From Rhodospirillales bacterium (GTDB lineage Bacteria; Pseudomonadota; Alphaproteobacteria; Acetobacterales; Acetobacteraceae): a DNA stretch of 64,000 bases. Each line of letters starts with the position of its first letter. Within the stretch, counting starts at the first letter, position 1. Where the stretch lies: NCBI GenBank assembly GCA_025352665.1, contig JANXSM010000115.1:1-64000 (forward strand), given 5' to 3'. A program made the position numbers and the translations under genes. Below are positions 506 through 14,079 of the stretch, piece by piece. The notes beneath the pieces are model-generated. The model made no database searches and was not told the origin of the DNA. It saw only the letters and a list, made by a program, of their open reading frames with translations.

Positions 506-1045
506 TCAGCGGGGGCGGCGGGGTTCGCGGGCGTTGGCTTCGATGAGGGCGCAGAGACCGTCGAGAATGGCTGTGGGCGTGGGGGGGCAGCCCCGGATGA
601 CGAGGTCGACGGGCAGCGCCGAGTCGATGCCGCCGGTGATGGCGTAGCTGCCTTTGAACACGCCGCCGTCGATGGCGCAGTCGCCGACGGCCACCACCCA
701 TTTGGGATCGGGCGTGGCCTGCCAGGTGCGGGTCAGTGCGGGGTGCATGGTACGGGTGACAGGGCCTGTGACCAACAACACGTCGGCGTGGCGGGGGCTG
801 GCGACGAATTTCAGGCCGAAGCGTTCGAGATCGTAGACGATGCCGGTGAGCATGGCGATTTCGAGCTCGCAGCCGTTGCAGCTGCCGCTGTCGACTTGGC
901 GGATGGCCAGCGTCCGGCCGAGGCGGTTGAAGGCGGCGGCCTTGAGGCGGGCGGCGAGGATTGCCACTTCGTCTTCGGGCGGCGGCGTGGCCGGTTCGGT
1001 GAGCGGGCCTTCGCGGAGTGCTCGGAACATCTCTCGCCAGGCCAT
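506..1045 (-). CDS. hyfI: NuoB/HyfI-like Fe-S subunit of an Ehr (hydrogenase-4-like) complex
   Basis: A 179-residue protein of the NADH dehydrogenase 20 kDa / hydrogenase-4 component I family, which carries the [4Fe-4S] cluster next to the large subunit. All four expected ligands are visible: C56 and C59 in GSCNGCELE, C123 in VGDCAIDGG and C153 in RGCPPTPTAIL. It is the last gene of the six-gene minus-strand operon, and its ATG overlaps the TAA of the large-subunit gene by one base. The intact cluster site contrasts with the altered Ni-Fe site in the partner subunit, suggesting an electron-transfer role in a complex that no longer handles H2. The acceptor or donor is unknown. Confidence 0.85.
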   Translation of the reverse strand: MAWREMFRALREGPLTEPATPPPEDEVAILAARLKAAAFNRLGRTLAIRQVDSGSCNGCELEIAMLTGIVYDLERFGLKFVASPRHADVLLVTGPVTRTMHPALTRTWQATPDPKWVVAVGDCAIDGGVFKGSYAITGGIDSALPVDLVIRGCPPTPTAILDGLCALIEANAREPRRPR

Positions 1046-2550
1046 TAGAGGTCGACTCCGGAATAAGAGCAGTTGAAGCTTTTGTTGCACAGTGGGAAGT
1101 CGGCCACGATGTTGCCCTCGATGGCGGCCTGCAGCAGCGGCCATTGGCGCCAGCTCGGGTCAGCCAGGAAGGCTGCGGTGATCAGCCCGCCTTCGAGGCG
1201 CAGCCAATGCCAGATGTCGCCGCGGAAACCCTCGCTCCAGCCGATGCCCTCGCCGCTGGCCATGGGCAGTGGCAGGGCGATCGGGCCGTCCGAAAGCTCG
1301 GTCAGCAGCAGGCGAAGCAGGCGGATGCTTTCGGTGATTTCGGCGAGCCTGACCCTCACGCGGGCATCGACGTCGCCTTGGTCGAGGCAGACTGCGGTGA
1401 CGTCCAGCCGATCGTAGGGCGCGTAGCCGGGGATGCGCCTGGCATCAAAGCGCCGTCCGCTGGCGCGGCCCACGAAGCCGCCGGCGGCGAAGCGTTCGGC
1501 CAGATCCGGACGCAGCGTGCCGGTCGATTGCAAACGGTCCGCCAGGCTCGAGGTATCGTCGTAGATGCGGACGAGTCCGGGCAACTCGGCCTCGATGGCG
1601 GCCACGGTGGCCAGGATCGCGCGGGCGCCTTCGGTGGCGAGGTCTTCGGCGAGGCCCCCGGGGATGACGGCGTCCATCATCAGGCGGTGGCCGAAGGCGC
1701 GGGCGGCGGCACGCAGCACGGCTTCACGGTGCCAGCCGAAGCGGGCAGGCAGAACGGCGAAGCTGGCGTCGCCGATGATGGCGCCGATGTCACCAAGGTG
1801 GTTGGCGATGCGTTCGATCTCGCCCATGACGCCGCGCAGCTGGGTGGCGCGAGGTGGGGCTGCCACGCCGCAGGCGGCTTCGGCGGCGTGGGCGAAGGCG
1901 ATGGCGTGGGCGACGGTGCTGTCACCCGACAGGCGGGCGGCGAAGCGGGCGGCGGCGCGCGGCGATTTGCCGCGCAGCAGGCCGAGCGTGCCCTTGTGCA
2001 GGTAGCCGAGGCGGATTTCGAGCCGCACTATCGTCTCGCCATTGCAGGTGAAGCGGAAATGGCCGGGCTCGATGATGCCCGCATGCACCGGGCCGACGGC
2101 GATCTGGTGCAGGCCTTCACCCTCAGAGGTGAGGAATTCCGCGGGTTCGGCGGCTGCGAGGTTGGGGCTGGGGCGGGCGGCCAGCGGTGTGGTGGTTGCC
2201 CAGTGGCCGTGGTCAAGCCAGGGGCGCTGGTCGATCCCGTCGGCGGCGGTGTGGCCCCAGAGGTCGCGGATCATGCGTTCGAACCAGGCGGCGGCCGGGC
2301 GGGTGGGGGAAAGGGCCGGGTAGAGGCCAATCTCGACGGCGACGGAGACGGGCAGGAAATCCGCGCTGTCGCGGTCGTGCAGCAGGGCATGGACGTGGGT
2401 TGGGTCGGCCCACAGGGCGAGCAGTTCCAGCGCGGGGGTTGCGGCAAGGGCTGCGGCGAATTCGGCCCAGGCGGACTGGTCGAGCACGCGGCGCGGGAAT
2501 GGGGCGCAGGCGACGAAGGCGGCAGTGTCGAGTATCGCGTGGGCGGTCAT
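1045..2550 (-). CDS. hyfG: HyfG/NuoCD-like large subunit lacking Ni-Fe cysteines
   Basis: A 501-residue fusion of a 30-kDa-like N-terminal domain (about 1-130) with a 49-kDa/Ni-Fe large-subunit domain (about 140-501), the architecture of HyfG/HycE. In true hydrogenases the first metal site is R-x-C-G-x-C-x-x-x-H; here the same frame reads R206-L-S-G-D-S-T-V-A-H215, so both cysteines are serine while R, G and H are kept. At the C-terminus the CxxC pair is reduced to C494-x-x-S497, and only four residues follow, so the usual maturation tail is absent. It therefore should not bind a Ni-Fe centre and matches the Ehr class described for Hyf-like complexes. ATGA overlap with the upstream hyfF. Confidence 0.85.
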   Translation of the reverse strand: MTAHAILDTAAFVACAPFPRRVLDQSAWAEFAAALAATPALELLALWADPTHVHALLHDRDSADFLPVSVAVEIGLYPALSPTRPAAAWFERMIRDLWGHTAADGIDQRPWLDHGHWATTTPLAARPSPNLAAAEPAEFLTSEGEGLHQIAVGPVHAGIIEPGHFRFTCNGETIVRLEIRLGYLHKGTLGLLRGKSPRAAARFAARLSGDSTVAHAIAFAHAAEAACGVAAPPRATQLRGVMGEIERIANHLGDIGAIIGDASFAVLPARFGWHREAVLRAAARAFGHRLMMDAVIPGGLAEDLATEGARAILATVAAIEAELPGLVRIYDDTSSLADRLQSTGTLRPDLAERFAAGGFVGRASGRRFDARRIPGYAPYDRLDVTAVCLDQGDVDARVRVRLAEITESIRLLRLLLTELSDGPIALPLPMASGEGIGWSEGFRGDIWHWLRLEGGLITAAFLADPSWRQWPLLQAAIEGNIVADFPLCNKSFNCSYSGVDL

Positions 2551-3995
2551 TTCGCGACACTTGCGGCAGCGCCCAGCCAGGCGACCACGCTGGTGGGCAT
2601 GGCGAAGCCGAGCACGAGCACCAGGGTGAGGTGGACCCAGGCAGGGATCAGCGCGAGCGGGCTCGTGGCGGGGCCGGGGCCGTAGGTGGGGGTTCCCAGG
2701 CAGAGGCCGACCAGGCGGGACAGCAGCGCCCAGCCGCCGACGACGAGGCCGATCCCGACCAGCGGGGTCAGATACGGGGCGCGGTTGACGGTCTCGCCGA
2801 GGATCAGCACTTCGCTGGTGAACAGGCCGAACGGGGGCAGGCCGGCGACCACGACGATGGCTGTGGCGAGCGTGAGGCCGAGAGCGCGGTCGGAGCCGAT
2901 CAGGCCGCTGATCCCCGCGAATACCTGCAGTCCCTTGCGCTGGGCGACGCGGCCGACGCATTGGAACAGAGCGGCCTTGGCGAGCGTGTGCACGGTCATG
3001 TGCAGGAGGCCGGCGAAGGTGGCGGCGGGGCCGCCGAGCCCGAAGGCAAAGGCGACGAGGCCGGATTGTTCGATGGTGGAGAAGGCGAAGAAGCGCTTCA
3101 CGTCGCGCCGGCCCCACATACTGAGGGAGGCGAGCAGCACCGACAGCAGGCCGAGCGCCATGAGGAATGGGCCAGGTGCGATCGCCTCGGCATTGGCGTC
3201 CATCACGCCGCGGAGGCGCAGGATGGCGACGAGGGCGACGTTGAGCACCGAGCCTGCGAGCACGGCGGAGACCGGGGTTGGGCCTTCGGCATGGGCGTCC
3301 GGCATCCAGCCATGCAGGGGCGCCAGGCCGGCCTTGGTGCCGTAGCCGAGTAGCAGGAACACGAAGGCAAGGTTGAGCAGCGTGCCACGGCAGCGGGGCG
3401 CTGCCAGCGCTAGGTCGGACCAGCTCATGGCGGCGTAGCCGGGGCCGAGGGCGGGGAGAGCTGCGAGATATAGTACCACCGTGCCGAACAGGGCGAGAGC
3501 GATGCCGACGCCACAGATGAGGAAGAACTTCCAGCTCGCCTCGATCGCATTCTCAGTGCGCGGCAGGCCGACCACGAGCACGGAGGCGATCGTGGCCGCC
3601 TCCAGCGCCACCCAAGTGACGCCGAGGTTGTTCGACAGCAACGCCAACAGCATGAAGCCAAGGAAGGTTAGCAGCAGCACATGGTAGAGGCGCGCGCGCG
3701 GCGGATCCAGTCGGCCCGAGGTGAGCTCGGTACGGATATAGCCGTAGCTGAAGATGGCCGAGGTAAGGCCGACGAAGCTGGTCAGCAGGGCCACCTGGGC
3801 GGACAGCGGGTCGACCAGCAAGAAGACGCTGACCTGCATTTCCCAGGGCAGCGCGCAGGCGGCGGCGAAGCCACCGGCGGCAGCGATAATGACGATGACG
3901 GCGCCGGCGCGGGCGTTGGTCGTCATCGCCGCCAGCAGTGCCCCCAGCAGAGGAAGTGTGGGCACCAGAGCGACGGGGTTGATCAGGTCGGTCAC
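2547..3995 (-). CDS. hyfF: HyfF-like proton-pumping membrane subunit
   Basis: A 482-residue hydrophobic protein of the NuoL/M/N-type antiporter family (hydrogenase-4 component F). Many transmembrane helices are evident, with the conserved sequences GLAPLHGWMPDAHAEGP (lysine upstream in GYGTKAG) and FFAFSTIEQSGL typical of proton-translocating subunits. The start is GTG: it overlaps the hyfE stop as GTGA, and translation gives MTDLINPVALVPTLPLLG. Its own stop overlaps the hyfG ATG. Together with HyfB it would form the ion-pumping arm of the complex. Confidence 0.87.
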   Translation of the reverse strand: MTDLINPVALVPTLPLLGALLAAMTTNARAGAVIVIIAAAGGFAAACALPWEMQVSVFLLVDPLSAQVALLTSFVGLTSAIFSYGYIRTELTSGRLDPPRARLYHVLLLTFLGFMLLALLSNNLGVTWVALEAATIASVLVVGLPRTENAIEASWKFFLICGVGIALALFGTVVLYLAALPALGPGYAAMSWSDLALAAPRCRGTLLNLAFVFLLLGYGTKAGLAPLHGWMPDAHAEGPTPVSAVLAGSVLNVALVAILRLRGVMDANAEAIAPGPFLMALGLLSVLLASLSMWGRRDVKRFFAFSTIEQSGLVAFAFGLGGPAATFAGLLHMTVHTLAKAALFQCVGRVAQRKGLQVFAGISGLIGSDRALGLTLATAIVVVAGLPPFGLFTSEVLILGETVNRAPYLTPLVGIGLVVGGWALLSRLVGLCLGTPTYGPGPATSPLALIPAWVHLTLVLVLGFAMPTSVVAWLGAAASVAK

Positions 3996-4669
3996 CGGTG
4001 GGCGCCTCCAACCCGGTCGAGATGGCGGATTTCGAGGCTGTCGAACTGGGCGCGGATGCGGAAGAAGAACACGCCGAACACGACGAAGGCGACCAGCACC
4101 AGGACGGCGACGGAGAGTTCGACGACCAGCGGCATGCCCTCGACGCCGACGGCGGCCAGGATCAGCCCGTTTTCGAGCGACATGAAGCCGATCACCTGGG
4201 TGAGGGCGGTGCGACGGCTGATCATCATGAGCAGCCCGAGCAGCACCACGGACAGGGCGGTGGCGAGGTCTTCCCGGGTCAGCGCCTGGGACTGGATGGT
4301 GGTGGGCAGCACCACCAGGATGGACAGCGCGACCAGCATCACGCCGAGCGCCATGGTGGGGAAGATGCCGAGTGCCGTATCGATGCCGCGGGAGATGCGC
4401 AGGCGGGTGACGATGCCGTGCAGGGCGATCGGGATGACGATGCCCTTGGCGAACAGCGCCAGGGCTGCGGTGATGTAGAGATGCGGTGCGTGCTGTACCC
4501 AGCCCTGCCAGCCGGCGGCGGCTGCGAGCGCCCAGGCCTGCAGCGCGTAGGTGTTGATCACCGAAGTGACCCGCGCCTGTGACAGCAGGGCGAAGGACAG
4601 CACCAGCACGACCGCGCCGAGCAGATGGGCGAGGTCGTAGGAGAAGGCACCGAAGCCGATATGCTCCAT
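3992..4669 (-). CDS. hyfE: HyfE-like membrane subunit (NuoK-related)
   Basis: A 225-residue membrane protein with about six to seven helices. It matches hydrogenase-4 component E, whose C-terminal half resembles NuoK; the glutamate in the helix containing FMSLENGLIL is the typical proton-channel residue. The ATG overlaps the hyfC stop by one base, and its TGA overlaps the GTG of hyfF, indicating translational coupling. Such a subunit links the pumping modules to the HyfC anchor. The role is family knowledge; only helices and motifs are seen. Confidence 0.85.
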   Translation of the reverse strand: MEHIGFGAFSYDLAHLLGAVVLVLSFALLSQARVTSVINTYALQAWALAAAAGWQGWVQHAPHLYITAALALFAKGIVIPIALHGIVTRLRISRGIDTALGIFPTMALGVMLVALSILVVLPTTIQSQALTREDLATALSVVLLGLLMMISRRTALTQVIGFMSLENGLILAAVGVEGMPLVVELSVAVLVLVAFVVFGVFFFRIRAQFDSLEIRHLDRVGGAHR

Positions 4670-5628
4670 CAGGCGAACCCCTGGCTGACGAACAGTAAGA
4701 TCGCTGCGAGCAGGCCGAGCAGCAGCGCCACGCCCAGGAACTCCGGCACGCGGAACACGCGCAGCTTGGCGCGGGTGGTCTCGAAGGCGGACAGCGCCAG
4801 GCCGAGGAGGGCGATCTTGATGACCCACACAAGGGCTGCGGGGATCCACAGCAGGGTTGGGCCGGCGGCGTGGGCGATGGCGAACGGGGCGAACACGCAG
4901 GCGAGCAGCGACATCCAAAGCAGCAGGCGCAGGGCGGCGCCGAGTTCGATCATGGCGAGGTGACGGCCGGAATACTCCAGCACCATCGCCTCATGCACCA
5001 TTGTGAGCTCCAGATGCGTCGCGGGGTTGTCGACGGGGATGCGGCCGCACTCGGCGACGGCCACGGCGGCCAAGCCCACGAGGCTGAGCGCCATCGAGAC
5101 GCGCAAGCCGAAGGCGCCGGTGGCAATCTGGCCGACGATGGCGTCGAGATTGGTGGTGTTGGCGAGCAGGGCGAGGGTGAACACAAACAGAAACAGACCA
5201 GGTTCAGCGAAGGTGGCGAACGCCATTTCGCGGCTGGCGCCGATGCCACCGAACGCGGTGCCGGTGTCCATCGCGGCGAGCGCCGTCACCGCGCGGGACA
5301 AGGCGAGCAGGCCGGCGATCACCAACAGGTCCGAGACATCGGCGGTGGCCATGCCGAGGGCGAAGCTGGGCACCAGGGCGATGGCTGCGAGACTGGCGGA
5401 CAGCGACACGGCGGGGGCGACGCGGAACAGCCAACTGGTGCCCTCGGCCACCACCGGTTGCTTGCGCAACAAGCGGATGAGGTCCCGCCAAGGCTGCTGC
5501 GGGGGCGGGCCGAGCCTGCCGACCATCCGCGCCTTGGCCCAGCGGACCAGGCCGGTCAGGAATGGTGCGACCGCGACCAGCAGCGCCAGGTGCAGCAGCA
5601 GCGCCAGCAATCCCGCCAACGCTGTCAT
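4669..5628 (-). CDS. hyfC: HyfC-like membrane anchor (NuoH-related)
   Basis: A 319-residue NuoH-like integral membrane protein, hydrogenase-4 component C. The N-terminal cytoplasmic loop reads KARMVGRLGPPPQQPWRDLIRLL, as in formate hydrogenlyase subunit 4, and the charged loop around GRIPVDNPATHLELTMVHEAM is a signature of the NuoH/HyfC family, contacting the peripheral Fe-S arm. The ATG at 5628 is chosen because it overlaps the hyfB stop (ATGA) and places the first helix directly after it. Confidence 0.88.
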   Translation of the reverse strand: MTALAGLLALLLHLALLVAVAPFLTGLVRWAKARMVGRLGPPPQQPWRDLIRLLRKQPVVAEGTSWLFRVAPAVSLSASLAAIALVPSFALGMATADVSDLLVIAGLLALSRAVTALAAMDTGTAFGGIGASREMAFATFAEPGLFLFVFTLALLANTTNLDAIVGQIATGAFGLRVSMALSLVGLAAVAVAECGRIPVDNPATHLELTMVHEAMVLEYSGRHLAMIELGAALRLLLWMSLLACVFAPFAIAHAAGPTLLWIPAALVWVIKIALLGLALSAFETTRAKLRVFRVPEFLGVALLLGLLAAILLFVSQGFA

Positions 5629-7661
5629 ATCTGTTCCAGCAGCGCGATGAGGCCGAGGAAGGCGACCAGAGCCGTGAAGATCACCGCCAGCGACTGGCGC
5701 ACGGTGAGGAACTGCAGCAGGTCGGCCACGCCGGACAGGTGCTGACGCAGCCGGGCGACGGGGGCAAACAGCCAGCGCTCGGCCGGATCCAGCGTGGTGG
5801 CGGAAAACCTCGCTGGCCGGATGTCGCCGGGTTCGGGCATGTCGACGGTCTCGGTGGCGCCGAGCAGGGCTGGGCCGAGCACGCGGCGTAGCGGCTGCGA
5901 GAAGCTGGCGCCGCCGTATTGGGTCAGCGGGTCGCCATTCGCAAGCCAGGCGGGAGCGGCGCCGAAACCGCTGTCCCAGGCCGGCCCGGTGCGATGGCCC
6001 GCGACCGCGCGAGCGCGCAGCACGGCTGCGACCAGGAGGGCGGCGAGCACCAGCAGCGCCGCGATTTCGAGCGGCGCGTAGCCGGCCGCGTTCTCCTGAG
6101 CAGCGATCCCGGTCCATCCGGCCCGACCGGCCATGTCGGTATTTCCCAGCATGCGCAGCGCGGGGCCGGCGAGGCCGAGCACACCAGCGGGGACCAGGCC
6201 GATCAGGACGACCACGATGCCGAGGCCGAGCATTGCCCAGCGCAGTGGGGGGGCTGCGTCATGCGCCTGGGCGGCGGCCTCCGTGCGCGGCCTTCCCAGC
6301 AGCACGATACCGACCAGCCGCACCGCGGCGGCGGCGGCCAGCGCCGTCGCCAGGGCGAGCGCCGCAGCCAGGATACAAACGACGATCTGCAGCCCCAGCC
6401 CGCCGAGACGGACCGCCGCAATCATCGATTGGAACAACATCCACTCGCCAGCAAAACCGGCGCCAGGAGGCAGGCCCGCGAGGCAGGCGGCTCCCAGCAG
6501 CAGGGCGCCGGCGGCGTAGGGCATACGCCGGATCAGCCCGCCGAGGTTTTTCAGCTGGCGGCTGCCGGCACCGTGCTGCACGGCTCCGGCAGCAAGGAAC
6601 AGCAGCGACTTGAACAGGCCGTGCGCCATGGCGTGCAGCAGCGCCGCCCCGATCGCAAGGCTTGCCAGCGCCGAGATATCCGCAGCACGGGCGGCCAGGC
6701 CCAGCCCAAGTCCGATGGCCACGAGGCCGACGTTCTCGACCGTGGAGCAGGCCAGGATCGCCTTGATGTCGGTCTCCAGATTGGCCCGCAATGCGCCGAG
6801 CACGGCGCTGGCAATGCCCATGGCGAGCAGCGGCAGACCCCACCAGAGCGGCTGCGCGGGACCGCTGAGGTCGAACAGCACACGCACCAGAACATAGATC
6901 GCGACCTTGGTCATGGCGCCGGACATGAGGGCGGAAACATGGCTGGGTGCGGCGGCATGGGCCGGGGGAAGCCACACGTGCAGCGGGGCCAGCCCGGCCT
7001 TGGAGCCGGCGCCGATCAGGACGGCGACCAATACCAGGACGGCGCGCAGGCCTTCCGGCGGATGGGCGCGCATGGCGGCAAAGCCGATGCCGTAGCGTGA
7101 CAGGGCGGCGAGCCCGGCGATCAGGCACACGCCCGATATTGCAGCCATGCCGACATAGAGTAGCCCGGCGACGCGGACCGAGGCCTGGCGATGATCGCTC
7201 AGCACCAGGGCGAAGGAGGCGAGCGACATCAGCTCGAACCCGGCCACGAGAGAAAAGGCGTCCGCGGCCAGAAGTGTGACAACCATTGCGCCGACGAACA
7301 CGGGCAAGGCGGGTGCCGTGGCTGACAGTGGCCCGTGGCGTTCGAGCGAGGCGGCGCCGGCGGCGCGTTCGAGCGAAGCGGCGCCGGCGGCGGCGCCGAC
7401 CAGGAACAGCAGCAGGGCGAAGAAGGCTGCGATCCCGTCGAGGGCGAGCACGCTGTCCAGGCCCGGCAGGCCGATCGCGAGCGTCAGGCTTTGCGGCCTG
7501 GCACCACCGATCAGGAAGCCGAGGTCGATCAGGGCGCCCAGGCAGCACAGCACCAGCACCCCCCACCCGGCGATGCGCGACCCGGTGACGGCGGTGACCG
7601 GGCCGAGTGCCAGCAGCAAGGCTGCGATGGCCGCGAGCAGGGGCAGGGCGGTGCCGCTCAA
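5625..7661 (-). CDS. hyfB: HyfB-like proton-pumping membrane subunit
   Basis: A 678-residue member of the NuoL/HyfB antiporter-like family and the first gene of the hyfBCEFGI operon. Conserved features include GSKAGLAPLHVWLPPAHAAA and CSTVENVGL, plus numerous helices; the long C-terminal tail resembles the lateral helix region of HyfB. The only reasonable initiation codon near the 5' end is TTG at 7661, with no obvious strong ribosome-binding site. No hyfA/hyfH ferredoxin gene precedes it, nor are maturation genes nearby. The promoter should lie within 7662-7852, shared with the divergent phosphodiesterase gene. Confidence 0.85.
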   Translation of the reverse strand: MSGTALPLLAAIAALLLALGPVTAVTGSRIAGWGVLVLCCLGALIDLGFLIGGARPQSLTLAIGLPGLDSVLALDGIAAFFALLLFLVGAAAGAASLERAAGAASLERHGPLSATAPALPVFVGAMVVTLLAADAFSLVAGFELMSLASFALVLSDHRQASVRVAGLLYVGMAAISGVCLIAGLAALSRYGIGFAAMRAHPPEGLRAVLVLVAVLIGAGSKAGLAPLHVWLPPAHAAAPSHVSALMSGAMTKVAIYVLVRVLFDLSGPAQPLWWGLPLLAMGIASAVLGALRANLETDIKAILACSTVENVGLVAIGLGLGLAARAADISALASLAIGAALLHAMAHGLFKSLLFLAAGAVQHGAGSRQLKNLGGLIRRMPYAAGALLLGAACLAGLPPGAGFAGEWMLFQSMIAAVRLGGLGLQIVVCILAAALALATALAAAAAVRLVGIVLLGRPRTEAAAQAHDAAPPLRWAMLGLGIVVVLIGLVPAGVLGLAGPALRMLGNTDMAGRAGWTGIAAQENAAGYAPLEIAALLVLAALLVAAVLRARAVAGHRTGPAWDSGFGAAPAWLANGDPLTQYGGASFSQPLRRVLGPALLGATETVDMPEPGDIRPARFSATTLDPAERWLFAPVARLRQHLSGVADLLQFLTVRQSLAVIFTALVAFLGLIALLEQI

Positions 7662-10299: not shown

Positions 10300-11289
10300 T
10301 TGGCTCGTCCGCTGACGCTGGTGACCGGGGCGACCGGTTTTGTGGGCTCCGCTGTGGCTCGCTGCCTGCTGGCCCGTGGGCATGCCGTGCGGGCGCTGGT
10401 GCGACCGTTGAGCGATCGGGCCAATCTTGCCGGACTGGCACTCGAGCTGGTCGAAGGAGACCTGACCGACCCCCAGTCGCTGGTTCGCGCCGTGGCTGGC
10501 TGTGACCATGTTATGCATGTCGCCGCAGACTATCGCATCTGGGTGCCCGACCCGGAGGCGATGCTGCATGCCAATGTGGGTGGCACGCGCGCGCTCATGC
10601 TGGCGGCGCGAGAGGCCGGCGTTGGCCGGATCGTTTATTGCAGCTCGGTCGCAGCACTCGGGCTGAAATACGACGGGAGCTCCGCCGACGAAACCACGCC
10701 GGTCAGCGAAGCAAGCGTGGTCGGGATCTACAAGAAGTCGAAATATCGGGCCGAGCAAGCAGTGCTGTCGTTGGTTGCCGAGGGAATGGACATCGTGGTG
10801 GTCAATCCCGCCGCCCCCGTGGGGCCGCGCGACATCAAACCGACGCCGACCGGGCGCATGATCGCCGATGCCGCGCGAGGGCGGATGCCGGCGTATTTGC
10901 CGACCGGGCTGAACATCGTGCATGTCGACGATGTCGCCGAAGGGCATTTGCTGGCGTTGGAACGCGGGCGGGCTGGGGAGCGCTATATTCTCGGTTCGGA
11001 GAACATGACGCTGAAAACCCTGCTGGAAATGGTCGATGGCGTGAGTGGCCGCCGGCAGCGACGGCTGGCGCTGTCGGCGCGTGTGCTGTGGCCGTTGGCC
11101 ATCGCCTGTGAGCGGTTGGCGAGGTTCGGCATCGAGCCGATGGTCACCCGCGACCATCTTCGCATGGCGACCAAGACAATGTTCTTCAGCCACGCGAAGG
11201 CTGCACGCGAGCTTGGCTATGCGCCGCGCCCGGCGCTGGCTGCAGTCGTTGACGCGGTGGCATGGTTTCGCGCCCACGGCGTGGCGTGA
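10300..11289 (+). CDS. hpnA: HpnA, NAD-dependent epimerase/dehydratase of hopanoid side-chain synthesis
   Basis: A 329-residue extended short-chain dehydrogenase. The Rossmann motif VTGATGFVGSAVA is at the N-terminus, and the catalytic YxxxK is seen as YKKSKYRAEQ. This is the hopanoid-associated sugar epimerase that opens most hpn clusters. The start is TTG at 10300, preceded by a GGGG-rich Shine-Dalgarno-like stretch. Its TGA overlaps the ATG of hpnB. In the pathway HpnA is thought to act on the ribosyl-hopane/aminobacteriohopanetriol branch, but its exact substrate is unsettled. Confidence 0.9.
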   Translation: MARPLTLVTGATGFVGSAVARCLLARGHAVRALVRPLSDRANLAGLALELVEGDLTDPQSLVRAVAGCDHVMHVAADYRIWVPDPEAMLHANVGGTRALMLAAREAGVGRIVYCSSVAALGLKYDGSSADETTPVSEASVVGIYKKSKYRAEQAVLSLVAEGMDIVVVNPAAPVGPRDIKPTPTGRMIADAARGRMPAYLPTGLNIVHVDDVAEGHLLALERGRAGERYILGSENMTLKTLLEMVDGVSGRRQRRLALSARVLWPLAIACERLARFGIEPMVTRDHLRMATKTMFFSHAKAARELGYAPRPALAAVVDAVAWFRAHGVA

Positions 11290-12392
11290 TGCTGGTGGCG
11301 TCAACCGCTGCCTTTTTGGCATGGATCTACTTATTGGTGGCGCACGGCCGGTTCTGGCAGGCGGGACCGATCCTAGAGCCCTCGGCGCCGATCAGTCACC
11401 CGGCGGTGGCGATCGTGGTGCCGGCGCGTGACGAGGCAGAGGGGATTGCGGCCAGCCTGTCCAGCCTGTTGGCACAGAGCTACCAGGGCCGGTTTCGTGT
11501 GGTGATGGTCGATGACAACTCGACCGATGACACGGCTGCCATTGCACGGATGTTGCCTGGGGCGGAGCGGTTGACGGTGATTTCAGGCAAGGCCCGGCCC
11601 GCGGGCTGGGCCGGCAAGCTTTGGGCGGTACACCAGGGCGTGGCCGCCACCGGCGAGGAACTGGTGCTGCTGACCGATGCGGACATCGTGCATGACCCGC
11701 GCCATCTCTCCACGTTGGTGGCCAAGCTGCTGTCCAGCCGCGTCGATATGGTCAGTGAAATGGTGGCATTGCGCTGCGAGGCGCTGGCGGAGCGGGCGCT
11801 GATTCCGGCCTTCGTGTATTTCTTCGCATTGCTGTATCCGTTCGCTCGTGTAAACGACGGGCTTTGTGCGACGGCTGCAGCAGCAGGCGGCACGGTGCTG
11901 ATCCGCCGCGCTGCTCTTGAGCGGATCGGTGGCATCACGGCCATCAGCGGCGCCCTGATCGACGATGTGGCGTTGGCAGGGCGCGTAAAGCGTGGCGGGC
12001 GGATCTGGCTCGGGCATAGCCGGCTGGCGCGCTCGGTGCGGCCATATCCGGATTTGGGCTCGATCTGGCGCATGGTGGCGCGCTCTGCCTACGTGCAGCT
12101 GCGCCTGTCGCCGTGGCTGCTGGCAGGGTCGACCGTGGGATTGGCTTGGCTGTTCCTGGTGCCGGTGGTGGCATGCTTGGCGGGGTCGGTGGTGGGCTTG
12201 GCCGCGTGGCTACTGATGGCCGGAAGCTTTGTTCCGACCTTGCGGCGTTTCGGGCTGTCCCCGCTGTGGGGTGTGGCTCTGCCAGGCATTGCCATATTCT
12301 ATATGGCGGCGACGCTGGGCTCGGCGCTCGACCACCACCGCGGCCGAGGCGTGGTTTGGAAGCGGCGCGCCTACACGGAGGCTGGATCGTGA
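11289..12392 (+). CDS. hpnB: HpnB, hopene-associated glycosyltransferase
   Basis: A 367-residue GT2-family glycosyltransferase. The GT-A nucleotide-binding region reads VAIVVPARDEAEGI, and the metal-binding DxD equivalents are VVMVDDNSTDDT and LLTDADIVHDP; a C-terminal block of transmembrane helices (about 265-350) anchors it to the membrane. It matches the HpnB family found with squalene-hopene cyclase. The ATG at 11289 overlaps the hpnA stop, and its TGA overlaps the GTG of hpnC, so coupling is expected. Confidence 0.88.
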   Translation: MLVASTAAFLAWIYLLVAHGRFWQAGPILEPSAPISHPAVAIVVPARDEAEGIAASLSSLLAQSYQGRFRVVMVDDNSTDDTAAIARMLPGAERLTVISGKARPAGWAGKLWAVHQGVAATGEELVLLTDADIVHDPRHLSTLVAKLLSSRVDMVSEMVALRCEALAERALIPAFVYFFALLYPFARVNDGLCATAAAAGGTVLIRRAALERIGGITAISGALIDDVALAGRVKRGGRIWLGHSRLARSVRPYPDLGSIWRMVARSAYVQLRLSPWLLAGSTVGLAWLFLVPVVACLAGSVVGLAAWLLMAGSFVPTLRRFGLSPLWGVALPGIAIFYMAATLGSALDHHRGRGVVWKRRAYTEAGS

Positions 12393-13225
12393 GTGCTGTT
12401 ATGGACAATGTCGAAAACTGGTCGGGTAAAACTCGGTCTGACGAGAACTTTCCCGTGGGTGCGATCGTGGCGCCACGGCTGCGCGGACACGTGCATGCGT
12501 TCTATGCGTTTGCTCGCAACGCCGACGACATCGCTGACAGCGCCGAGCTTGAGGCCGCTGACAAAATTGCCCGGCTCGATGTGATGGAAGCGGTACTGCT
12601 GGGCCATGCAACCCATGGTTCGCCCAGTGCGACCGCGTTGCGCCGCAGTCTTCTGGAAACCTCGGTGACGTCGCAGCATGCCTGTGACTTGCTGGTGGCG
12701 TTTCGCCAGGACGCGACCAAACATCGTTGCGCGAGCTGGCACGAGCTTTATGATTATTGCCGCTATTCGGCGATGCCGGTGGGTCGCCACGTGCTCGATT
12801 TGCACGGCGAAAGCACCGACACCTGGGTCTCGTCGGACGCGCTGTGCAGCGTGCTGCAAGTGCTGAACCATCTGCAAGACGGCAAAAAGGACCTGCTGGC
12901 GTTGGATCGGTGCTATTTGCCCAACGATCTGCTGGCGCGGTTCGGCACCGGGGTGGCGGATCTGCTGGGGATCGCGGAAACCCCGGGACTGCGCCAGGTA
13001 TTCACTGAATTGCTCAATGAATGCGACCGGTTGAACGCGCTGGCGCAGGGATTGCCCAAGCTGGTGCGAAACCGCCGGTTGCGCCTGGAGACCGCGGTGA
13101 TCGTGCAGCTTTCGAAGCGGCTCGCGGCTCGGCTACGCGTCGGCGATCCGGTCGCCACGCGGGTGAAGCTGCGCCGGACCGATGCAATTTTCAGCATGCT
13201 GGCCAGCCTGCGGTATCTGTCGTGA
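12389..13225 (+). CDS. hpnC: HpnC, hydroxysqualene synthase
   Basis: A 278-residue squalene/phytoene synthase family protein. In the HpnCDE route HpnD makes presqualene diphosphate, HpnC converts it to hydroxysqualene and HpnE reduces that to squalene. The aspartate-rich motif is NADDIADSAE in helix context AFYAFARNADD, with the second motif degenerate (LNHLQDGKKD), as expected for HpnC. The start is GTG at 12389 overlapping the hpnB stop; ATG at 12401 is an alternative. Confidence 0.9.
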   Translation: MSAVMDNVENWSGKTRSDENFPVGAIVAPRLRGHVHAFYAFARNADDIADSAELEAADKIARLDVMEAVLLGHATHGSPSATALRRSLLETSVTSQHACDLLVAFRQDATKHRCASWHELYDYCRYSAMPVGRHVLDLHGESTDTWVSSDALCSVLQVLNHLQDGKKDLLALDRCYLPNDLLARFGTGVADLLGIAETPGLRQVFTELLNECDRLNALAQGLPKLVRNRRLRLETAVIVQLSKRLAARLRVGDPVATRVKLRRTDAIFSMLASLRYLS

Positions 13226-14079
13226 GCGCGGTGCCGGCGCTGGGCGCGGATCCACAGGACCTCGCCGCTGTTGAAACCATCGTGCGTGAGGCCGGGACGA
13301 GCTTCTACCGTGGCATGCGCATTCTGCCGGCTGATCGGCGCATGGCGATGTATGCGATCTATGCGTTCTGCCGGATCGTCGACGATATCGCCGACGATCC
13401 GGCGCCGTTCGAGACAGTGCTGCCGCGGCTGATTGAGTGGCGTGTGCGCGTCGAGGCGATCTTTGCCGGGCAAGCCAGCACGCCCGTCACCCGCGTGCTG
13501 CTGCGCGCGACGCAGGCGTTCCAGCTGCGCCAGGCCGACTTCGAGGCAGTCATCGACGGCATGCAGATGGATGCGCAGAACTTGATCGTGGCGCCCGAGC
13601 TGGCAACGCTCGATCTTTACTGTGACCGAGTGGCCGCCGCCGTCGGCAGGCTTTCGGTGCGCGCTTTCGGCGATGCCTCGCCCAATGCGGACGCTGTTGC
13701 CTGGTCGCTGGGCCGTGCCCTGCAGCTCACCAACATCTTGCGCGACGTGCATGAGGATGCCGGGCGCGGGCGGCTGTATCTGCCGGCGGAATATCTTGAT
13801 GCCGCCGGCATTCCCCACAATCCCGCCCAGGCGCTGGCCCATCCCGGCCTGCCTGGCGTCTGTAAGCGCCTGGCGGCCGATGCCCACGGCCATTTCGCCG
13901 ATGCGGCGGAGGCGATGCGTCGCTGTGACAAGACGGCGATGAAACCGGCGCGGTTGATGGGCGCCACCTACGCGGCACTGCTCGCAGTTCTGGAGAAACG
14001 GGGCTGGGACCGGCTGGACGTGAAGGTGAGGGTGGCGAAATGGCGTAAACTCTTGCTGGCCCTGCGGTTCGTGCGTTGA
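13222..14079 (+). CDS. hpnD: HpnD, presqualene diphosphate synthase
   Basis: A 285-residue squalene/phytoene synthase condensing two farnesyl diphosphates to presqualene diphosphate. Both aspartate-rich motifs are clear: FCRIVDDIADD and LRDVHEDAGRGR, with YLPAEYL after the second. The start is GTG at 13222, overlapping the hpnC stop. The stop overlaps the TTG of hpnE. Position, size and motifs distinguish it from the neighbouring HpnC paralogue. Confidence 0.92.
   Translation: MSAVPALGADPQDLAAVETIVREAGTSFYRGMRILPADRRMAMYAIYAFCRIVDDIADDPAPFETVLPRLIEWRVRVEAIFAGQASTPVTRVLLRATQAFQLRQADFEAVIDGMQMDAQNLIVAPELATLDLYCDRVAAAVGRLSVRAFGDASPNADAVAWSLGRALQLTNILRDVHEDAGRGRLYLPAEYLDAAGIPHNPAQALAHPGLPGVCKRLAADAHGHFADAAEAMRRCDKTAMKPARLMGATYAALLAVLEKRGWDRLDVKVRVAKWRKLLLALRFVR

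Follow-up and report, generated by a model that had tools for sequence, protein, structure and literature searches.

The window analysed here, a stretch of 64,000 nucleotides from a Rhodospirillales bacterium of the Acetobacteraceae (contig JANXSM010000115.1), carries on its minus strand six overlapping genes (positions 506 to 7661) which, on balance, appear to encode a short complex I-like, ion-translocating oxidoreductase of the Hyq/Ehr type, its Ni-Fe site turned into a cavity free of metal ligands. Hyq/Ehr is a widespread family that has already been described: Ehr complexes are reported from Geobacter (GSU0739-45), comammox Nitrospira and Margulisbacteria, and the accessible text of these reports suspects charge translocation (PMC10284858, PMC6349859, PMC7894505). 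Exactly this six-gene form was published from Azorhizobium caulinodans under the name Hyq between 2009 and 2012, complete with deletion mutants (PMC2650096, PMC2930871, PMC3357923). The suggestion in a preliminary description of this DNA that the six-gene, ferredoxin-less form had yet to be studied is therefore not supported; its placing of the operon with the Ehr-like complexes, on account of a HyfG without Ni-Fe ligands, is supported.

The genes run in the order HyfB-C-E-F-G-I, all on the minus strand. HyfB/HyqB is a NuoL-like antiporter-type subunit (5625..7661; 678 residues from a TTG, the precise start being uncertain), HyfC/HyqC is NuoH-like (4669..5628; 319 residues; PF00146, E 2.8e-35), HyfE/HyqE is NuoK/J-like (3992..4669; 225 residues) and HyfF/HyqF is a NuoM/N-like antiporter-type subunit (2547..3995; 482 residues; PF00361, E 5e-45). 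The large subunit HyfG/HyqG (1045..2550; 501 residues) has a NuoC-like N-terminus fused to a NuoD/hydrogenase-type domain, and the small subunit HyfI/HyqI (506..1045; 179 residues; PF01058, E 3e-32) carries one set of [4Fe-4S] ligands and matches HycG (7z0s_G) with E 1.4e-40. HyfB matches the NCBIfam hydrogenase 4 subunit B model with E 2e-159 and yet stays under the curated cut-off, as does HyfE against hydrogenase 4 membrane subunit E (5e-21). A tRNA-Arg lies downstream of the operon at 200-275; the contig begins at base 1 of the window, and the downstream view ends there. No gene for HyfA, HyfD, HyfH or a maturation protein is found within the operon, so the gene calls bear out the earlier statement that ferredoxin subunits and maturation genes are missing from it. 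Among 80 relatives, 59 have all six genes in the order BCEFGI; in the other 21 HyfG mostly sits close to the end of the locus, and in two of them (L008 and L015) upstream sequence is present with HyfB and HyfC undetected. When 81 loci together with L094-L122 were searched for E. coli HyfH, it was found next to HyfG in the [NiFe] controls L121 and L122 only; five weak matches to HyfA or HyfH (below 46 bits, in four loci) lie some 4-8 kb past the operon, and on this search a HyfA or HyfH hidden nearby was rejected.

The large subunit has lost its metal ligands. In HyfG, R206-L-S208-G-D-S211-T-V-A-H215 stands where RxCGxCxxxH is expected: the L1 motif RLSGDSTVAH (residues 206-215; 1906..1935, minus strand) aligns with RVCGICGFAH of HycE/HyfG, and both cysteine positions are read directly as serine (Ser208, TCG; Ser211, AGC), as first noticed. 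The C-terminal (L2) segment DFPLCNKSFNCSYSGVDL (residues 484-501; 1048..1101, minus strand) aligns without gaps to HycE (DFPLCNKSFNCSYSGVD over DAPLIIGSLDPCYSCTD), and S495 and G498 fall on the two Ni-Fe cysteines; C494 falls on the proline of DPC in HycE, and S497 on a serine common to HycE and NuoD. The pair C494/S497 put forward earlier is thus one residue off, and the alignment rules it out as a ligand pair. By alignment, all four Ni-Fe ligands are absent from HyfG (0/4 cysteines), and the proposed loss of the site stands. It is a property of the whole group: cysteine occurs at 208 or 211 in none of 108 window-type HyfG rows, position 208 being serine in 107 of them and alanine in one, and in alignment A1 position 498 is glycine in 85/85 rows, with cysteine at 495 in a single row, that of Mycobacterium branderi. 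The remark that every other motif residue remains holds for the window itself but not for the family, where residue 215 is His in 77 rows, Tyr in 26, Phe in three, and Ser and Leu in one each. That the substitutions are a sequencing error, or disguise a functional Ni-Fe site, has a negligible probability, because position 208 is Ser or Ala in 108/108 rows and the codons vary: in the 78 of 80 loci that were read, all four TCN codons are used at position 208, and TCN, AGY, ACN and GCN at position 211. A disguised site is also at odds with most tested carriers having no HypD above the cut-off. E. coli HycE and HyfG continue beyond the second cysteine position, whereas the window protein has no C-terminal maturation extension and stops at VDL, three residues past 498.

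The genomic setting of the operon points the same way. In the window genome, rated 100% complete, HypC gave no match and HypD a 41-residue match only (21.1 bits, below the cut-off of 25), both profiles being detected in E. coli by the same searches; this is what the genome-wide search for hyp genes proposed in the preliminary description yields for these two families. HyfG is this genome's only match to the Ni-Fe large-subunit family, and no nifD was found; a separate complex I is present. Among carriers, HypD exceeds the cut-off in 5/24, and of the 19 negatives 14 are at least 90% complete and five below 90%; HypD is present in both of the [NiFe]-type genomes examined, which carry the RVCGIC motif. 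For nifD the counts are 4/26 carriers and 3/48 non-carriers, not a clear association, and a link to nitrogenase was dropped. The HypD and nifD counts are evidence against a Ni-Fe enzyme that is in general selected together with nitrogenase. The published view of such complexes as nickel-iron hydrogenases linked to nitrogen fixation is likewise disfavoured by the genome evidence. A simple-pattern search for NifA or sigma-54 sites found none in nine upstream regions, the window's among them; since the regions of the named orthologues were also empty, this result is uninformative.

The window operon matches Hyq in its six structural genes and their order, in a large subunit without either CxxC motif, in the four cysteines of the small subunit and in a genome where complex I is unlinked to the operon; Hyq orthologues in Xanthobacter, Rhizobium and Bradyrhizobium records read RQSGDSTVAY, RTSGDSTVAY and RVSGDSTVAY, respectively. 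Compared with the published description of Hyq, the window differs in having no evident hyqR-like gene upstream of the operon and I259 in place of Cys-258, and no nifD was found in its genome. The accessible parts of the Azorhizobium papers name Hyq an H2-recycling endo-hydrogenase from deletion phenotypes, with H2 uptake and evolution in vivo dependent on hyq (PMC2650096, PMC2930871, PMC3357923). Expressed in pmol per 10^9 cells per min, H2 evolution rose on deletion from 12 to 175 at 20 uM O2 and fell from 61,000 to 14,000 in a hup background below 1 uM O2; the same paper stated in 2012 that both HyqG CxxC motifs are absent (PMC3357923). The preliminary description had named hydrogenase activity dependent on the operon as evidence that would count against a lost site; the hyq phenotypes resemble such activity, but a Ni-Fe site is untenable by sequence. 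The present data sharpen this published contradiction: H2 cycling is reportedly driven by an operon whose product cannot bind Ni-Fe, and neither HypD nor nitrogenase is present in most of the carriers tested.

One way out would be an H2-active endo-hydrogenase with a catalytic site other than Ni-Fe, perhaps on conserved cysteines, and we regard it as very unlikely. H2 recycling was reported in strains without the whole hup/hyp operon, and likewise for Rhodocista centenaria without hup/hyp ('data not presented') (PMC2930871, PMC3357923). The 2012 paper, which calls Cys 258, 491 and 497 of HyqG completely conserved, describes a cell-free assay of H2 uptake as 'not at hand' (PMC3357923). With the Azorhizobium numbering matched by alignment inference, these three are jointly present in 52/85 A1 rows and all missing in 5/85, and the window has C488 and C494 with I259 at the first position. 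Given 52/85, we do not treat the three-cysteine set as defining, and a catalytic site of this kind conserved in all members is ruled out; nor is position 259 a new site, because E. coli HycE and HyfG also have cysteine there. C488 and C494 do co-vary, and changes at the two positions tend to coincide: among seven supported contrasts, across 200 random pairings, both moved the same way in 5.2 and in opposite ways in 0.1 (median p 0.06), on trees from quick searches, the first of them with long branches. The window genome, in which searches for nifD and HypC came back empty and HypD stayed below the cut-off, also weighs against such an enzyme. We hold it to be highly improbable that Hyq-type complexes represent a fourth kind of hydrogenase, group-4-like but lacking Ni-Fe ligands and independent of Hyp, which would produce and consume H2 in vivo at a site perhaps formed by C488/C494 and the HyfI cluster. 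Such a fourth kind would be compatible with the Azorhizobium phenotypes, published as independent of hup/hyp, and with the absence of HypD from most tested carriers.

The small subunit and the pump are well preserved. HyfI has C56, C59, C123 and C153 in the pattern of the proximal cluster, with an additional C165, and the ion-path residues are present in HyfB (E143, K221, K252, K351, E406) and HyfF (E132, K221, K340, E395), in agreement with the initial reading of four retained Fe-S cysteines and intact-looking pumping subunits. Across 30 window-type loci, drawn from plasmids and the class sample, all four HyfF residues are kept in 29/29 aligned sequences and all five HyfB residues in 24/26, the exceptions being a short ORF (L084) and an Asn at K8 (L088); four loci have no separate HyfB ORF. 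All four HyfI cysteines are present in 28/29, the last being Ala in L108. The complex might instead be a redox-gated ion transporter, with HyfGI a sensor or structural cap and zero net electron flow. This would suit the M. branderi homologue, in which HyfI has lost all four proximal cysteines and HyfB/F keep nearly all ion-path residues (HyfB K8 being Asn), but the retention in 28/29 window-type loci, together with a nested derived clade in which the proximal cysteines are kept after loss of the pump residues (13/14), points to a redox role, and we consider the transporter unlikely.

Within the window's family the operon is common, and it is found across the class: 24/289 genomes sampled from the class carry the six-subunit form, as do 86/150 sampled genomes of the family, counted at 450 bits or more. 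Of 35 family matches below 440 bits 22 were retrieved, of which 16 are pump-less, four have or lie near a ferredoxin-fused HyfI and two are [NiFe]-type. The derived clade, with its cluster and without its pump residues, indicates that coupling is no fixed requirement in the wider family, and it offers a natural separation of the cluster half from the pump half; no report of it was found in literature searches that were not aimed at it directly and barely at Acetobacteraceae. In three related complexes of the window's family (L127, L129 and L131) a two-cluster ferredoxin domain is present at the N-terminus of HyfI, which keeps all four proximal cysteines; we counted these for ferredoxin as the partner.

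The predicted HyfG structure (pLDDT 83.5) has HycE (7z0s_E) as its best PDB match (Z 43.5, rmsd 2.8 over 453 residues), and HycE and complex I chains appear throughout the best 50 matches listed. With the Hyf and Hyc systems of E. coli (formate hydrogenlyase, group 4) the window shares subunit homology, the HyfG fold, the pump residues of HyfB/F and the CxxC-type proximal cluster; unlike them it lacks the Ni-Fe ligands and a C-terminal maturation extension, its operon is without HyfA/D/H, and neither HypC nor HypD was found over the cut-off. The overall plan is that of complex I (NuoB, NuoCD, NuoH, NuoL/M/N, NuoK), and the NuoC::NuoD fusion is common to HyfG and E. coli complex I, but CNGC replaces the tandem CC, the cluster N2 motif is absent, and the operon has no NADH module. 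The usual ligands of the quinone head-group in complex I are His38 and Tyr87 (Thermus thermophilus numbering), and these positions align with I160 and G209 of HyfG, so that a quinone acceptor remains a proposal.

In the oxidoreductase that we favour, the cavity would be lined by Ser208, Ser211, Ser495 and Gly498 and hold no metal ligands, the HyfI cluster would be the only bound redox centre, and electrons would pass through it, with a soluble low-potential partner at one end and, at the other, an acceptor placed in the former active-site cavity or close to it. The partner, as a first guess free ferredoxin or flavodoxin, might dock where HyfH sits in formate hydrogenlyase, and the acceptor would most simply be the quinone pool. 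The energy would drive ions through HyfC/E/F/B, and a high ion-motive force could run the complex in reverse. Such a complex would be neither a [NiFe] hydrogenase nor specifically an enzyme of nitrogen fixation, and a plain ferredoxin:quinone enzyme would explain the hyq H2 phenotypes of Azorhizobium only indirectly. Alternatively, the HyfI cluster may reduce a small substrate, sulfur or a disulfide, within the cavity, coupled to the pump, as in the sulfane-sulfur reductase of Pyrococcus (Mbs/Mbx), where the cluster itself reduces the sulfur substrate and ions are pumped. The shared architecture, the vanished Ni-Fe site, the retained proximal cluster and a match of HyfG to 6u8y_L, presumably that Pyrococcus complex (E 2.5e-10), are compatible with this, but HycE (2e-43) and MBH (1e-31) are far closer to HyfG and no recurrent neighbour family, viewed by eye, suggests sulfur metabolism; we rate a sulfur reductase as improbable.

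The accessible portions of the literature gave no established electron donor or acceptor for Hyq/Ehr. With its small size, among the smallest of complex I-like machines with a full pump, and its single bound cluster, the chemistry of Hyq/Ehr bears on the coupling of electrons to ions in complex I. The formate dehydrogenase partner proposed for the Ehr complex of Margulisbacteria gains no support from co-occurrence in the window's class: the alpha subunit exceeds the cut-off in 18/24 carriers against 39/48 other genomes, with none in the window genome, and this partner was dropped. When flanking ORFs of the 80 relatives and the window were clustered, no conserved partner gene appeared beside the operon; families reach 27 loci at most and were judged by eye to be lineage synteny, and a conserved neighbour as electron partner was dropped. 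The earlier judgement that donor and acceptor are unknown is, with no such neighbour and no formate dehydrogenase association, a fair one. A TRAP-transporter-like permease flanks 27 loci, and hopanoid-like genes flank the window operon as well as those of at most six further loci.

The six minus-strand open reading frames at 506-7661 encode HyfB, HyfC, HyfE, HyfF, HyfG and HyfI, and neighbouring ends overlap. All six are assigned to hydrogenase-4 and complex I subunits by Pfam and NCBIfam (HyfE by NCBIfam alone); among the NCBIfam models listed, a single NuoB subfamily model, for HyfI, passed its curated cut-off. The large subunit HyfG joins a NuoC-like domain to one of the NuoD/hydrogenase type, and its AlphaFold model (pLDDT 83.5; segments 114-117, 128-130, 132-186 and 497-501 below 50) superposes on E. 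coli HycE over 453 residues (Z 43.5, rmsd 2.8). The solved chain closest by sequence is HycE (E 2e-43), followed by the archaeal MBH large subunit (1e-31) and then Thermus Nqo4 (2e-26). The operon corresponds to hyqBCEFGI of Azorhizobium caulinodans; it is conserved, looks functional and belongs to the known Hyq/Ehr kind, and its complex is not a [NiFe] hydrogenase.

The L1 motif of HyfG reads RLSGDSTVAH and, since S495 and G498 lie under the two L2 cysteines in an ungapped alignment, all four Ni-Fe ligands are absent; nor do the protein sequence and alignment contain a C-terminal maturation peptide. The loss of these ligands, central to the preliminary description, is thus confirmed; it is not new, because the same operon had been published as A. 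caulinodans hyqBCEFGI and its CxxC loss stated in 2012. Position 208 is Ser in 107 of 108 window-type HyfG rows and Ala in the other; at position 211, Ser occurs in 87, Thr in 16 and Ala in 5. An alignment of 85 rows shows no variation at R206 or G209, and 84 of its rows have Asp at D210. All named orthologues in the set analysed carry R-x-SGDSTVAY: Xanthobacter autotrophicus (L058 and L069), X. oligotrophicus (L059), Rhizobium ruizarguesonis (L084) and Bradyrhizobium (L085). C488 and C494, in the L2 region, are both present in 84 of the 108 rows, both absent in 15 and found singly in nine; seven supported contrasts on the tree, with changes in the same direction 5.2 on average and opposite 0.1 (median p 0.06), are suggestive only of a tendency to change together, and C259 showed no comparable link on the same tree.

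By alignment, the HyfI ligands form the hydrogenase-type set CxxC...C...C, as opposed to the tandem cysteines of N2. HyfB and HyfF retain the Glu and Lys residues equivalent to NuoL/M E144, K229/K234 and K342, plus a Glu at NuoM E407; HyfF has Asn at the NuoM K265 position, as does E. coli HyfF. Among 30 further window-type loci, the four HyfF ion-path residues are retained in 29 of 29 aligned sequences, the five of HyfB in 24 of 26, and the four HyfI cysteines in 28 of 29.

We favour an ion-translocating oxidoreductase in which the HyfI cluster is the only bound redox centre. In another Ehr type from the window's family, HyfI is fused to a ferredoxin domain with two clusters (L127 2870-3679, L129 9114-10022, L131 9150-9953), which makes ferredoxin the most natural electron partner; in the window type it would dock from solution. 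Window HyfI apparently shares the short N-terminal segment preceding this insert, so a ferredoxin domain may have been deleted from it. Quinone would be the simplest acceptor, though the usual ligands are missing: the canonical complex I quinone ligands align with I160 and G209 of HyfG. A sulfur or disulfide substrate is a possible acceptor.

Published work on the hyq operon concerns A. caulinodans. According to Ng et al. (2009; PMC2650096), hyq is NifA-dependent, and its in-frame deletion slows diazotrophic growth from 7.2 to 8.8 h (4.2 to 5.0 h with 20% H2), ammonium-grown cells being hardly affected (2.3 to 2.4 h). A 2010 paper (PMC2930871) has nodule H2 recycled through either Hup or Hyq, with recycling said to persist without the hup/hyp operon and hyq said to be generally absent from non-diazotrophs. 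The 2012 paper (PMC3357923) describes in vivo H2 uptake and evolution as dependent on hyq, HyqG of eight genera as being without both CxxC motifs, and its Ni-Fe site as "uncertain, if not unlikely"; three conserved HyqG cysteines are also named. Under the favoured mechanism, these H2 phenotypes could be indirect effects of a changed ferredoxin and quinone redox poise. A small helix-turn-helix-type gene lies directly upstream of hyfB, at the published place of hyqR, in L058 (4459-4815, recognized by eye), L084 (4425-4739) and L085 (4443-4763; both annotated); none is evident at the window operon.

A scan of genome contigs gave at least 584 relatives among at least 592 matched stretches; 80 were kept, and 59 of these have all six genes in order. 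Clear window-type matches (E <1e-140) occur in 24 of 289 class genomes, the window's own included, and intermediate ones (1e-87 to 6e-67) in four more; other matched genomes are at the level of NuoD (about 1e-41 to 1e-56). Within the window's family, 106 of 150 genomes have a match below 1e-60 and 86 reach at least 450 bits, a count by score with motifs read in a minority of the 86. The operon is also present in annotated records of plasmids from Azospirillum, Rhizobium, Bradyrhizobium and Burkholderia; no neighbour gene is shared by the four, and two of them have a YoaK-family gene upstream.

The window's genome, rated 100% complete, has one complex I NuoD, away from the operon. It has no other Ni-Fe large-subunit family match and no HypC match, and its HypD match is only a sub-cut-off fragment; its three formate dehydrogenase alpha matches all fall short of the cut-off (the best 393 against 666 bits), and nifD was not found. 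Of the 24 carriers in the class sample, 5 have HypD over cut-off, 3 have nifD (as does one of two tested carriers of the window's genus) and 18 have formate dehydrogenase; among 48 non-carriers, 3 have nifD and 39 have formate dehydrogenase. No complex I NuoD was found in addition to HyfG in two carriers, G170 (0.9 Mb, completeness rated at 100%) and G178 (88%); in G170, whose Hyq operon is L113, neither HypD nor nifD nor formate dehydrogenase alpha was found over cut-off either. Beyond the published work, then, most tested carriers are without above-cut-off HypD, most are without nifD, and the three HyqG cysteines are not universal.

Sixteen loci in the window's family (L119, L120, L123-L126, L130, L132-L134, L136, L138-L142) are pump-less derivatives, forming one group (support 99) nested in a set with 20 window-type rows including the window (98), long branches calling for caution. 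Long hydrophobic open reading frames, four in most, adjoin the HyfG-like gene in all 16; seven such membrane subunits tested from two genomes had no Pfam match. HyfI was detected in 14 loci and keeps its four cysteines in 13. The 15 HyfB-like proteins have no Lys or Glu at aligned ion-path positions, although some positions did not align, among them E5 in 9 of these 15 proteins, and a second alignment places Glu at E5 of HyfB in L126; the 14 HyfF-like proteins have none except Glu at E5 in L132, with Asp at E12 in two. The genes are open and under some purifying selection in the pairs compared, dN being well below dS for HyfG and HyfI and less so for the membrane subunits, with one pair near saturation. 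The Mycobacterium branderi homologue shows the reverse, most pump residues being kept and the four HyfI cysteines lost, so the redox and pump halves can be lost separately. In this Ehr-type plasmid operon (L087 6769-14208), the small subunit, without any of the four proximal Fe-S cysteines, has a ferredoxin domain with a single cluster at its N-terminus.

The genes of a plus-strand run at 10300-14079, a few kb away from the operon in the window, resemble those for hopanoid synthesis (hpnA, B, C and D-like); six other loci also have a member of the first gene's family close to the operon.
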